Made by a program: the position numbers and the translations under genes
Assembly (NCBI GenBank): GCA_016124645.1
Contig: WGNE01000010.1
Location: 55,878 to 119,877 of the forward strand
DNA: 64,000 nt
Direction: 5' to 3'
From: Alphaproteobacteria bacterium
GTDB lineage: Bacteria; Pseudomonadota; Alphaproteobacteria; Micavibrionales; UBA2020
Part shown: in pieces, positions 23,523 through 29,366 of the stretch
Layout of the letters: every line of letters starts with the position of its first letter
Position numbering within the stretch: position 1 is the first letter of the stretch
The notes under the pieces: model-generated
What the model was told of the DNA's origin: nothing
The model's database searches: none
The model's input: only the letters and a program-made list of their open reading frames with translations

Positions 23523-23962
23523 AACCGCGAATATAGGCGAGAACGGGCCGAAGGTAAAGCGGAAAATAAGCCGTTCCTGCCTTTGGGGCATGTGGGTGGT
23601 TTTTGCTATCTCCGCTGCGGCAGGATTTTCGCCGGAAAGCCTGACACCTGGTTGTGGTTCTCGCGGATGAAAAGACACCCATGCCAAGGAGCCGCGATGC
23701 AGGCATATTTGTACAGAAGGATTTAAGGGTGAGGAGACGGTTTATGCATTCTAGAAAATGACGCGACTATTATCATGATAACCTATTGAAAAATATATAT
23801 CCTATTTAGTTACATTTTGTGTGATAATGTATATTATGGAAAATAATATACCAGTCCAGTCAATACCATTTATCCATTCCATACGGCATAAATCTATAAC
23901 AAAATGAAGTCTCTAGGCTTATGCTGTCTTTTTCCGCCCCTCCAGATGAAAGTCTTTTCCAC

Positions 23963-24607
23963 ATGCACCGGCATATCCTTTCCGTTATCAGCGTTCTCGT
24001 CCTTATCTGCGCGTTTCTTTTCGCGCCGCCGTCCTTCGCGCAACAGCCGGATGCACAGGACCGAAAGCTGGCCGCGCAAGAAGTCGCGGTTTCCGCCGAG
24101 ATGACCGATGCCATCAACAAGGCCGCCGCGATCATCAACCAGCCGGTCGCGCCCGTGGCTTACGATCCGTCGTTCCATGTGGGCTATTATTCGCCCGGCT
24201 GGTTCCACAAGGGCGCGATCAAGCCGAATTTCGATGCGGTGGACGTCCGAAAGACGCAGGAATTGCCCTATGCGAAGTTCGACTACGTGCGGTCGGACCT
24301 GAACCCGGATATCATGTTTCCGGGCGCGCAGCTCGAATTCAACCGCATGACCAAGTATTTCTATGCCGACCGCTCGGTGCCCAAGAAGCGCCTGACGCAG
24401 AAAGAAATGATCGAAATCAACGCGTTGTATCGCATCATCGGCAAGGATGAAAAACGGCTGACCGACATTAAAAAGGAACGGGTCGAAGGCCCGGCCGTTG
24501 GGAGTATTGACGGCGGGCCGCTAAAATCGCCCGTCGCCATCATCTGCCTGATCGGCGCAGTTCTGGTGGCGGGGTATTTTCTGGCACGCGGAAAGAAAAA
24601 TGCCTGA
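23963..24607 (+). CDS. Hypothetical protein with signal peptide and C-terminal TM anchor
   Basis: MHRHILSVISVLVLICAFLFAPPSFAQQ at the N-terminus; SPVAIICLIGAVLVAGYFLARGKKNA at the C-terminus. Confidence 0.7.
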   Translation: MHRHILSVISVLVLICAFLFAPPSFAQQPDAQDRKLAAQEVAVSAEMTDAINKAAAIINQPVAPVAYDPSFHVGYYSPGWFHKGAIKPNFDAVDVRKTQELPYAKFDYVRSDLNPDIMFPGAQLEFNRMTKYFYADRSVPKKRLTQKEMIEINALYRIIGKDEKRLTDIKKERVEGPAVGSIDGGPLKSPVAIICLIGAVLVAGYFLARGKKNA

Positions 24608-24618
24608 AAGATATGTAA

Positions 24619-25254
24619 ATGAAAAAGCCGTTTTTCATCGCGGCTCTGATAGTTGCCGCCCTTGCCGCCATGGCCGTCCTCCCGGCGCCCGCGCAAGGCT
24701 ATACGCCCAGCGCACAGATGATTTTCGACTGTGCGAACGGCAGGCCTTCCGCCACCAATGAAATGAAACGCAACTGCCGCGCGCTTATAGTCGGTGCCTT
24801 CCGCAGCGAGGCCGAGGGCTATGCCGGCGGCTTGTGCGTGCCGCCTGTCCTGACGGATGAATCGATATATCTTTCCATGCGCGATTTCTACAACCGTCAG
24901 CCGCGTGCCGCACATGACGCGGATTATACGCGGTTCGTGCGCGACGGATTGTATGCCACCTTTGCCTGCAGCGCTAACGATAGAAAAAATTACATCAATA
25001 AAACAAAACAAGCAGATGAAAAAACAGAATTTATTCGGTTTGCGGAACATGATTTCAATAATCTTGCCTACCACAGTCAGCAGTCCGGCATAAACTTCTG
25101 CGTTCCACTGAGTCAGGAAGGTACCGATTTTTTCAACTTTCTGCGCCGCCACCCGGTATCCACGCCGCAGCAGTGGCGCCAGCTCAACCTGCCGGCCTTG
25201 CTGCGTGCCGATTACCCCTGCCGTCGCGGCATTGCGGGACATCGCCCTGAATAA
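24619..25254 (+). CDS. Secreted protein resembling the Rap1a/Tai immunity-protein family
   Basis: Signal peptide; CRALIVGAFRSEAEGYAGGLCVPPVLTDESIYLSMRDFYNRQP...GLYATFAC pattern, then a second partial copy CVPLSQEGTDFFNFLRRHP...ALLRADYPC. Confidence 0.5.
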   Translation: MKKPFFIAALIVAALAAMAVLPAPAQGYTPSAQMIFDCANGRPSATNEMKRNCRALIVGAFRSEAEGYAGGLCVPPVLTDESIYLSMRDFYNRQPRAAHDADYTRFVRDGLYATFACSANDRKNYINKTKQADEKTEFIRFAEHDFNNLAYHSQQSGINFCVPLSQEGTDFFNFLRRHPVSTPQQWRQLNLPALLRADYPCRRGIAGHRPE

Positions 25255-25351: not shown

Positions 25352-25373
25352 TTCAACAAAAAGGATTATTGCG

Positions 25374-25772
25374 ATGTCCAAACCCTCCATGAACGATTTC
25401 ATCAAGGCGCTGCGCAGCGACGCTTCCCTCAGCGACGATTTCGCGAAAGCCGTCAGCGCGCTGGCGAAGAAATCGGGCTTCGACGTGACCGAGGAAGACG
25501 TCAGGAACTTCGTCGATGAGCAACCCGTCCGCCGCCCCCTTCCCGGCCACGGCGGCGCGACCACGATGGCCCTCGGCGAAGAAGGCAAGCCGCCGCGCTT
25601 TGACAACGACGACATGCCCAGCGTCACCCTTGCCATCGGCGAGGAAGACGGCCGCAAGAAAGACCCCAAGCCGCAGCCGCCGAAAGACGACGACTGGCGC
25701 CGCCGCGTCACCACGCTGGCCATGGGCGAGGAAGGCAAGCGTCCGCAGCCGCCGAAAGGCCCGGGCAAGTAA
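25374..25772 (+). CDS. Graspetide (omega-ester peptide)-like RiPP precursor with Nif11-like leader and three core repeats
   Basis: MSKPSMNDFIKALRSDASLSDDFAKAVSALAKKSGFDVTEEDVRNF (Nif11-like), then TTMALGEE, VTLAIGEE, TTLAMGEE; ATP-grasp gene 6 bp downstream. Start chosen at ATG 25374 (aaaggatt RBS-like). Confidence 0.82.
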   Translation: MSKPSMNDFIKALRSDASLSDDFAKAVSALAKKSGFDVTEEDVRNFVDEQPVRRPLPGHGGATTMALGEEGKPPRFDNDDMPSVTLAIGEEDGRKKDPKPQPPKDDDWRRRVTTLAMGEEGKRPQPPKGPGK

Positions 25773-25778
25773 GCCGCC

Positions 25779-26660
25779 ATGCTGCTCATCGTCGGCGACA
25801 GCCGTGACCACAACATCCGCAGGCTCGAGGATGCCGCGCAATGGCGCGGCGCGGAATATCGCGTCATCCATACCGACGGCGACCCCGCGCCCGCCGTCAG
25901 CTGGCGGCCCGGCAGCGACGCGCTGACCGTGAACGGCGAAACCTTCCGCGCGAAAGACACCGCGCTGTTCCTGCGCTACGACGTGTTCAGCGAGCAGGCG
26001 CAGGAAACGAAGGCCGCGCTGTTCGACGCCTTCGCCGGCTGGGCGCAGGCGAACCGCGGCGTGGGCATGCTCAACCGCGGCAACGAGACGCTGGAGGTCA
26101 ACAAGCCGCGCGCGCTGGCGCTGGCGAAGGAATGCGGCTTCGAGATTCCCGAGACATGGATCACCGCCGACTTCAACCGCTTCGCCGACAAGGAAGCCTA
26201 TATCGCCAAGCCCGTTGCGGGCGGCGCCTTCACGCGCAAGCTTTCGGACATGCCGGAGACTGCCGAGAAGCCCTATATCGTGCAGGAAAAGCTGGACTAC
26301 CCGGAAATGCGGCTGTTTCGCGTGGGCGGGCATTACTTCGCCTTCCGCATCGAAAGCGGCGCGATAGATTACCGCGCGACGGATGATTTCACGCTGGTGG
26401 AAGTCGAGCCGCCCAAGGCGCTGGTGACCGCCATGGAAAAGCTGAGCGACCGGCTGGGGCTGGACTACGCGGCGGCGGACCTGAAGACCGATCCGAAAAC
26501 CGGCGCGCTGCGCTTTCTTGAGATCAATTCCATGCCCATGTTCACGGGCTATGACGACGCGGCGCAGGGCCGCCTGTCTGACGCGCTGTTCCTGACTTTG
26601 AAGAAGCTTGCCGCCGGCGGGAAAAAGCCGGGGCCGGGATTCAAAGCGGCATCTCCATGA
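25779..26660 (+). CDS. ATP-grasp ligase, predicted graspetide macrocyclase (MvdD/RimK-like fold)
   Basis: LNRGNETLEVNKPRALALAKECGFEIPETWITADF, YIAKPVAGGAFTR, YIVQEKLDYPEMRLFRVGGHYFAFRIES, LGLDYAAADLKTDPKTGALRFLEINSMPMF. Confidence 0.85.
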   Translation: MLLIVGDSRDHNIRRLEDAAQWRGAEYRVIHTDGDPAPAVSWRPGSDALTVNGETFRAKDTALFLRYDVFSEQAQETKAALFDAFAGWAQANRGVGMLNRGNETLEVNKPRALALAKECGFEIPETWITADFNRFADKEAYIAKPVAGGAFTRKLSDMPETAEKPYIVQEKLDYPEMRLFRVGGHYFAFRIESGAIDYRATDDFTLVEVEPPKALVTAMEKLSDRLGLDYAAADLKTDPKTGALRFLEINSMPMFTGYDDAAQGRLSDALFLTLKKLAAGGKKPGPGFKAASP

Positions 26661-27162: not shown

Positions 27163-28522
27163 AGTTTTTCACCGTTTCCTTGAAGATTTCACGAAGGTTG
27201 ACGAGGTCGTCAAGCGCGGCGCGCTCGTCAATCTGGTGCATGCCGCCGCGGGAAAGATAATCTTCGGGCTTGTGCTTTTCGCAGGCGATGCCGCCGCGCT
27301 CGGGCAGGCCCAGCTCGATGATTTCGGCCTTCGGGAAGACCTGCGCGGCGAAGCGCCCGTCGGTCGTGCCGCCGCTGCCGTCCAGTTCGGCGTCCTTGCC
27401 CAGCACGGTCTTCACCGCCTTCTGCGCGGAAAGCGCGAGGTCGGCGGGTTCGCTGTAATACGGCACCGATGCCGTGTCCTTGTTTGCGGTCACGGTGATG
27501 TTCTTCAGCAAGGGCGCGTCCGGGTGGTTCTTCGCCCAGTCGGGCGGATTGGCGAGCGCGTCCTTGATCCATTTCTCGAGCCCGTCCGGCGTCTGGTCGG
27601 GCGTGAAGCGGATGTTCCACATCATCTCCGCCTTGCCGGGGATGATGGCGCTGGCGTTGAAGTCGCCGGATTTCAGCGCGACGGCCTCGAAATTCGTGTT
27701 CGGGAAGTGCTCGTTCCCGTCCTTCCATTCGTGGCTGTTCAGGATGGCGATAGCAAGCGCGAGGGCGCGGTTCGGATTCTCGAAAAGTTCCTGATAGGCC
27801 GCGTGGCCCTGCACGCCCGCGACGTTGAAGGTGCCGACAAGGCTGCCGCGGCGGCCGATTTTGATATGGCTGCCAAGTTCGTCCTGCGAGCTGGGCTCGC
27901 CCACGATGAAGGCGTCGGGCGCCTCGCCTTTTTGCTTGAGCCATTGCAGGACTTTGTTGGTGCCGTTGACGGCGGCCCATTCCTCGTCTGTCGTCAGGAT
28001 CATGCTGATCTTGACCTTGCCGCCGGCTTTGAGTTCTTTTTGCAGGTCTTCGACGGCGGTGATGAAGGCGGCGACGCTGCCCTTCATGTCGGTCACGCCG
28101 CGGCCGTGCAGATAGCCGTCCTTGATCGTGCCGCTGAACGGGTCTTGCGTCCACTTGGCGGCATCGCCCGGCGGCACCACGTCGAGGTGGCCGATGTAGC
28201 AGATGTGCCTGACGGGTTCGCCGTCGTCATCGTTTGCGGGGCCGAGGTTCCATTCCAGATAGACGTTTTCGACCGGGTAATCCCATTTCGGGTGGTCGCC
28301 TTCGAATTCCATGCGGGTCGCGGTCGCGCCGGATTTCTCCGCCGCCTCGACGGCAAGGTCGATGCTGCGGCGCGATTCAGGCTGGTCTTCCGCCTTCAGC
28401 GCGGTCACGCTGGCCACGCGCACCAGTTCCTGCGCCAGTTTCACCGTCGCGTCCTGCGCGTGGCGGTCATGGTCGTGCCGGGCGTGGTCGTGCTTCGCGG
28501 TTTTTTTGTCAGGCTGCGGCAT
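27086..28522 (-). CDS. dapE: M20 metallopeptidase, DapE-type (succinyl-diaminopimelate desuccinylase-like)
   Basis: YIGHLDVVPPGDAAKWTQDPFSGTIKDGYLHGRGVTDMKGSVAAF, TTDEEW, GRRGSLVGTFNVAGVQGHAAYQ, GGTTDGRFAAQVFPKAEIIELG. His/Asp-rich N-terminal extension. Confidence 0.88.
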   Translation of the reverse strand: MPQPDKKTAKHDHARHDHDRHAQDATVKLAQELVRVASVTALKAEDQPESRRSIDLAVEAAEKSGATATRMEFEGDHPKWDYPVENVYLEWNLGPANDDDGEPVRHICYIGHLDVVPPGDAAKWTQDPFSGTIKDGYLHGRGVTDMKGSVAAFITAVEDLQKELKAGGKVKISMILTTDEEWAAVNGTNKVLQWLKQKGEAPDAFIVGEPSSQDELGSHIKIGRRGSLVGTFNVAGVQGHAAYQELFENPNRALALAIAILNSHEWKDGNEHFPNTNFEAVALKSGDFNASAIIPGKAEMMWNIRFTPDQTPDGLEKWIKDALANPPDWAKNHPDAPLLKNITVTANKDTASVPYYSEPADLALSAQKAVKTVLGKDAELDGSGGTTDGRFAAQVFPKAEIIELGLPERGGIACEKHKPEDYLSRGGMHQIDERAALDDLVNLREIFKETVKNYGQQQRKPASKRPAPQPGPAPGGAG

Positions 28523-29366
28523 TCATCGTATCCGGTTCGTAATAGCGGGTGGTGTTGATGCGGCGCGGGTCCATCGCCGTCTTAGCGATTTGGCGGAAGC
28601 CGGAGGTCGGCAGCTCCGCCGCTTTATACAGGAACTGGTAGGCGCCCTCGGAATCGCGCACCATGAGCGCGCCCTGATGGTGGCGGCGCAGCCGGCTATA
28701 GACCTGCTCCCTGCCCTGCAGCAGGCTGGCGCAGATCACCAGCTCGTTGTCGCGCGGGTCGTATTGCAGCGCGTCCATACAGCGGACATCGACGCGGTCG
28801 GACAGGTCGAGCTTTTGGCCCAGCTGGCGGGCGAGGTCGCAGGCCTCGCTGTCGTAATCGACGCAGACGATCTGCGCGTCCGGCACGCTGTAGGCCAGCA
28901 GGAAAGCGGTGATGGGCAGCGCGCCCGCGCCAAGGAAGCTGATGGTCGAAAAGCTGCGGTTTTCGAACAGCTCTTTTTCCGCGCGGCAGAGCTCGCGGTA
29001 TTCGGGGTAGTACCAGAATTCGTCAAGGTGGCAGTCCGCGCGGGAGATCAGGTTGCGTGCCCAGAATTTCTCCATCTCGCATTCCGCCTGCCCGCAAAGG
29101 CCGGGCAGGGTTTCGCGCTCCTCCGACAGCTCGGGGGTCTGCAGCAGGTAGCCCGAAACATCCGGCGACTGGCAGCGCGTCAGGGTGCGCACAAGGTGGG
29201 TGAGCGAGCGGTTCACGCGCTCGTTCTGCGGCGAGAGGTTTTGCTCTGCCGACAGCAGCGCGTAGCTTTCACGAATGGCCTGTTCGGCTTCTTTGCGGAG
29301 TTCCATGGGCGTCACACTCTTGAGTACCGTTTGGGGCGTTAACATATTGTCAGAAAAATCTGTCAT
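28509..29366 (-). CDS. Nicotianamine synthase-like (NAS/CntL-type aminobutanoyl transferase-like) protein
   Basis: STISFLGAGALPITAFLLAYSVPDAQIVCVDYDSEACDLARQLGQKLDLSDRVDVRCMDALQYD...ICASLLQG...GALMVRDSEGAYQFLYKAAEL resembles the NAS signature (GSGPLP...IDxDxxAn.A..., LMLRSAHGxRxFLYP). Confidence 0.78.
   Translation of the reverse strand: MTDFSDNMLTPQTVLKSVTPMELRKEAEQAIRESYALLSAEQNLSPQNERVNRSLTHLVRTLTRCQSPDVSGYLLQTPELSEERETLPGLCGQAECEMEKFWARNLISRADCHLDEFWYYPEYRELCRAEKELFENRSFSTISFLGAGALPITAFLLAYSVPDAQIVCVDYDSEACDLARQLGQKLDLSDRVDVRCMDALQYDPRDNELVICASLLQGREQVYSRLRRHHQGALMVRDSEGAYQFLYKAAELPTSGFRQIAKTAMDPRRINTTRYYEPDTMNAAA

Follow-up and report, generated by a model that had tools for sequence, protein, structure and literature searches.

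Plesiocin, which is built of repeated hairpin units, inhibits serine proteases, and its potency rises with the number of units (PMC13097080). It belongs to the group 2 graspetides (PsnA2/PsnB). Its core unit, TTLAIGEE (precursor chain 7drm_E), is preceded by the fragment LGKVTGGKGGPY, which carries a Gly-Gly motif. Group 2 systems frequently, not universally, include a peptidase-containing NHLM-type transporter. Recently, 19 new graspetide groups were described; long repeat precursors are frequent in groups 34 and 35, and clusters of groups 27, 28 and 35 often comprise no more than synthetase and precursor (PMC13097080). Precursors of lanthipeptides and of azole peptides are known to carry Nif11 leaders. 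In the N11P family (TIGR03798) a Nif11 domain leads a RiPP precursor; the partners reported were TOMM cyclodehydratases and LanM lanthionine synthases, and ATP-grasp enzymes were not mentioned (Haft 2010; PMC2887384).

The window, i.e. the entire 64,000-nucleotide stretch of alphaproteobacterial DNA analysed here, contains a precursor gene followed by a gene for an ATP-grasp ligase (Table 1). The source is probably related to the predatory bacterium Micavibrio and so probably of the order Micavibrionales; the NCBI taxonomy places Micavibrio elsewhere. We consider this most probably (roughly 0.8) a minimal two-gene graspetide cluster, in which a precursor with a Nif11 leader would receive plesiocin-like rings from the ATP-grasp enzyme, the product likely being a protease inhibitor. 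The leader, the array, the family and fold of the enzyme and the conserved pairing come from sequence and prediction. As in plesiocin, tandem units are combined with a single ATP-grasp, and TTMALGEE and TTLAMGEE are nearly identical to the plesiocin unit. In contrast, the leader is unlike the corresponding plesiocin fragment, and an NHLM-type transporter is absent. With N11P the precursor shares the leading Nif11 domain; it differs by a missed TIGR03798 cutoff and by the lack of paralogous expansion, of a conserved Gly-Gly and of an adjacent PCAT transporter.

Table 1. Features of the cluster in the window and of related loci.
Feature	Position	Strand	Basis
Putative ribosome-binding site AAGGA, 5' of the precursor ATG at 25374	25361..25365	+	sequence reading
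Precursor ORF, 132 aa (leader and three core units with P/K/R/D-rich linkers)	25374..25772	+	
Nif11-type leader, residues 1-47, predicted three-helix domain	25374..25514	+	PF07862, AF2, conservation in relatives
Core unit 1, TTMALGEE, residues 63-70	25560..25583	+	
Core unit 2, SVTLAIGEED, residues 83-92, Ser-Val-Thr variant	25620..25649	+	
Core unit 3, TTLAMGEE, residues 113-120	25710..25733	+	
Graspetide-type ATP-grasp ligase, 293 aa, starting 6 bp past the precursor stop	25779..26660	+	
Related locus with other leader	L009:5068-5979		
Related locus with other leader	L010:1263-2159		
Related locus with other leader	L023:2404-3348	-	
Viral locus	L025:2655-4355		
Viral locus	L026:4788-5878		
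Viral locus	L027:4779-6745		

The precursor reads MSKPSMNDFIKALRSDASLSDDFAKAVSALAKKSGFDVTEEDVRNFV, a linker, and then the three units, which are separated by linkers rich in Pro, Lys, Arg and Asp. An earlier note, made from the DNA letters, had proposed that the first 47 or so residues fit a Nif11-like leader fused to a TTxxxxEE array. The leader assignment was borne out in a Pfam scan: PF07862 (Nif11) scored 27.7 bits against a gathering cutoff of 23.8 (E 3.3e-6). The match covered residues 1-42 and 47 of the 48 profile positions and was the sole Pfam match in the precursor. An hmmscan against Nif11 models, which the note had suggested as a check, thus succeeded with Pfam and fell short of the stricter TIGR03798, which aligned to residues 1-46 with 22.9 bits (E 7.7e-5; cutoff 32.3). 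By sequence we assign the N-terminus to Nif11, though not formally to N11P. The term 'fused' holds insofar as both parts lie in one ORF; this is the ordinary leader-plus-core arrangement and not a fusion of two genes. The array, too, is present as proposed, with two of three units starting with TT and the second one departing from the pattern. None of 200,000 leader shuffles matched a hand-made Nif11-like pattern to which the leader conforms, a weak check as the pattern was devised with the leader known.

The AlphaFold model of the precursor predicted helices at residues 6-15, 17-34 and 40-48 with block-mean pLDDT values of 81-93 and a disordered core. A fold search with this model, of which only the leader part is confident, returned no significant match, and a PDB search with the precursor sequence gave chance matches only. 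In comparison with two relatives, dN/dS of the leader was about 0.17-0.24 wherever dS was unsaturated, indicating purifying selection. No second Nif11 domain was found in the 2.85 Mb source genome.

Searches detected the ATP-grasp in five more genomes, four from the order and one from elsewhere in the class. In all five relatives it is immediately preceded, on the same strand, by a precursor of 4-8 units. Nif11 was the top Pfam match in all six precursors and exceeded the cutoff in four of them (27.7 bits in the window, 28.1 in L002, 25.4 in L003, 25.2 in L005); L004 and L012 remained below it with 14.6 and 17.6 bits. Within the order, Nif11 above cutoff was present in 5 of 136 genomes, one copy per genome and without paralogous expansion, and the ATP-grasp in 5 of 143. 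Both occurred together in four genomes, always adjacent (hypergeometric 1.8e-6, about 136 genomes). The association of a Nif11 precursor with the ATP-grasp recurs beyond the source genome and is not a one-off. In the fifth Nif11 genome of the order (G485; L017) a 69 aa protein stands alone on a short contig with no adjoining ATP-grasp; this contig is probably a cyanobacterial contaminant.

Could the Nif11 likeness of the leader be a convergence of a generic short helical bundle in front of a real graspetide core? The leader is short, TIGR03798 stayed below its cutoff, the two weakest leaders (L004, L012) missed that of Pfam, and the leader model matched nothing significantly in the fold search. 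We regard convergence as unlikely because six divergent precursors share Nif11 as their top Pfam match, four of them above cutoff, because Nif11 is scarcely found elsewhere in the order and because the match in the window spans nearly the full profile length.

The AlphaFold model of the ATP-grasp had a pLDDT of 88 and a pTM of 0.84. With this model Foldseek returned PsnB as best match, and the first 31 matches were all graspetide synthetases; ArgX, LysX and RimK ranked lower, RimK from rank 35. A profile built from five ATP-grasp sequences hit PsnB (7drm) at E 2.3e-22, followed by CdnC, AMdnB, 9bou, 5ig8 and 5ig9, the latter two being MdnB and MdnC as named in the Foldseek list. PsnB, PruB, MdnC, AMdnB and CdnC head the profile and fold lists. 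By both, PsnB is the nearest solved enzyme, with only about 25% sequence identity in the structural alignment. The NCBIfam graspetide models matched only in part and scored below their cutoffs; the best was TIGR04187 (E 8.6e-16; cutoff 350). Residues K109, K144, R178, D234, E248 and N250, which we take to be ATP and magnesium ligands, are invariant in eight aligned ATP-grasps. This is consistent with an active ATP-grasp site. Alternatively, the enzyme could be RimK-like and extend the acidic repeats with glutamate instead of closing rings: RimK-family models matched, though weakly, and RimK structures do appear further down the fold list. This is very improbable in view of the long run of graspetide synthetases that precedes RimK in the fold list, the preference of the sequence search for PsnB and the plesiocin unit carried by the repeat.

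The six precursors, from the window and its five relatives, contain 35 units. Most are of the type [TS][TS]xAh[GP]EE, and 29 of the 35 start with two T/S residues. Five are SVTLAhGEED units, found in the window precursor and in L002, L003 and L004. An Asp directly follows all five SVT units and 9 of the 30 others (Fisher 0.006; the five units are from related precursors and are not independent). One may speculate from these sequences that in SVT...EED units the outer ring is shifted to the Ser and the following Asp or Glu.

Next to the cluster neither a C39 peptidase nor a transporter was detected; the C39 matches of this genome lie on other contigs. Downstream lie a gene for an acetyltransferase and, two genes away from the cluster, one for an M20 peptidase on the other strand. 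The two upstream genes (23921-25254) were rejected as cluster members; they matched no recognised family and were not seen in the inspected flanks of the relatives. One of them (24619-25254) codes for a signal-peptide-like protein with no confident family match. Elsewhere in the window, an ORF at 28509-29366 (-) matched nicotianamine synthase (PF03059, 87.8 bits) and is possibly a metallophore gene. The window precursor has GHGG before the core (GHGG-ATT). In the relatives GHGG is absent from this place, and a conserved Gly-Gly cleavage site was not found across the six precursors. PCAT-type cleavage at GHGG was therefore rejected as a general feature. PADLOC found nothing, a promoter scan yielded nothing above chance, and a plasmid collection searched with precursor and ATP-grasp contained no match.

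Similar cores also occur behind other leaders. Related ATP-grasps of Notoacmeibacter (L009), Nitratireductor (L010) and another alphaproteobacterium (L023) adjoin acidic-repeat precursors; that of L023 has about 15 units of the TTxxxGEEG type (TTLAIGEEG-like). In place of Nif11 these three precursors have a different N-terminal region of about 110-130 aa, in which a Pfam scan gave no credible match. On three IMG/VR viral contigs a distant graspetide-type ATP-grasp is directly followed by an ORF with TTMAVGEE/TTxAVGED arrays. A recognisable leader was absent from these array ORFs, the proteins scanned on the three contigs matched neither Pfam nor PHROG, and a search of phage GenBank entries with the viral ATP-grasp found no match. 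In a tree of the ATP-grasps a single label change suffices for the six Nif11-type enzymes, at weak bootstrap (56/96) and with long branches present; PsnB stands on a long branch apart from them. Since related ATP-grasps lie beside similar cores with another leader or none, core and enzyme appear more stable than the leader, and the leader may not be essential.

Within the preferred reading of a two-gene graspetide cluster, we infer docking, ring pattern, cleavage and bioactivity as follows. The Nif11-derived three-helix leader would dock on the neighbouring ligase, a single ATP-grasp enzyme. This enzyme would phosphorylate Glu side chains in each TTxxxxEE unit, and the activated Glu would be esterified to side chains of Thr or Ser. 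Each unit would become a nested two-ring hairpin as in plesiocin, which gives up to six rings for the window precursor; the outer ring of the SVT unit may instead link Ser with the Glu or Asp that follows. Then the leader would be removed by an enzyme encoded elsewhere. As the potency of plesiocin grows with unit number (PMC13097080), a multivalent serine-protease inhibitor is our best guess for the product.

The earlier note had called the pairing of a Nif11 leader with an ATP-grasp-linked TTxxxxEE array unusual. This agrees with the main texts searched, none of which described Nif11 paired with graspetides. Where the graspetide papers checked mention Nif11, they either cite Haft or speak of it in another connection. 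Possibly the cluster belongs to a graspetide group that is already catalogued, its Nif11 leader being recorded in supplementary tables. The new groups with long repeat precursors make such a tabulated precedent conceivable: groups 34 and 35 resemble the window cluster in this respect, and group 35, like 27 and 28, often has just synthetase and precursor. The main text gives no leader type for these groups (PMC13097080). That this text does not mention Nif11 and that the pairing was not met elsewhere in the literature searched speak against an existing entry, which we hold to be the less probable case, albeit a serious one. What appears to be new, judged by sequence, is a Nif11-type leader on an otherwise plesiocin-like graspetide system. 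We give about even odds to the wider proposal that Micavibrio-like Alphaproteobacteria harbor an undescribed plesiocin-like graspetide lineage with a Nif11-derived leader, whose relatives combine a similar core with an unrelated leader or none.

If Nif11 leaders also serve an ATP-grasp macrocyclase, one docking module would be common to chemically unrelated enzymes. A module shared in this way across enzyme classes would be useful for the design of hybrid RiPP pathways. Related enzymes beside similar cores under different leaders constitute a natural test of the leader requirement of graspetide synthetases. The proposed Nif11-leader lineage would represent a natural case in which leaders were exchanged while core and enzyme stayed the same.
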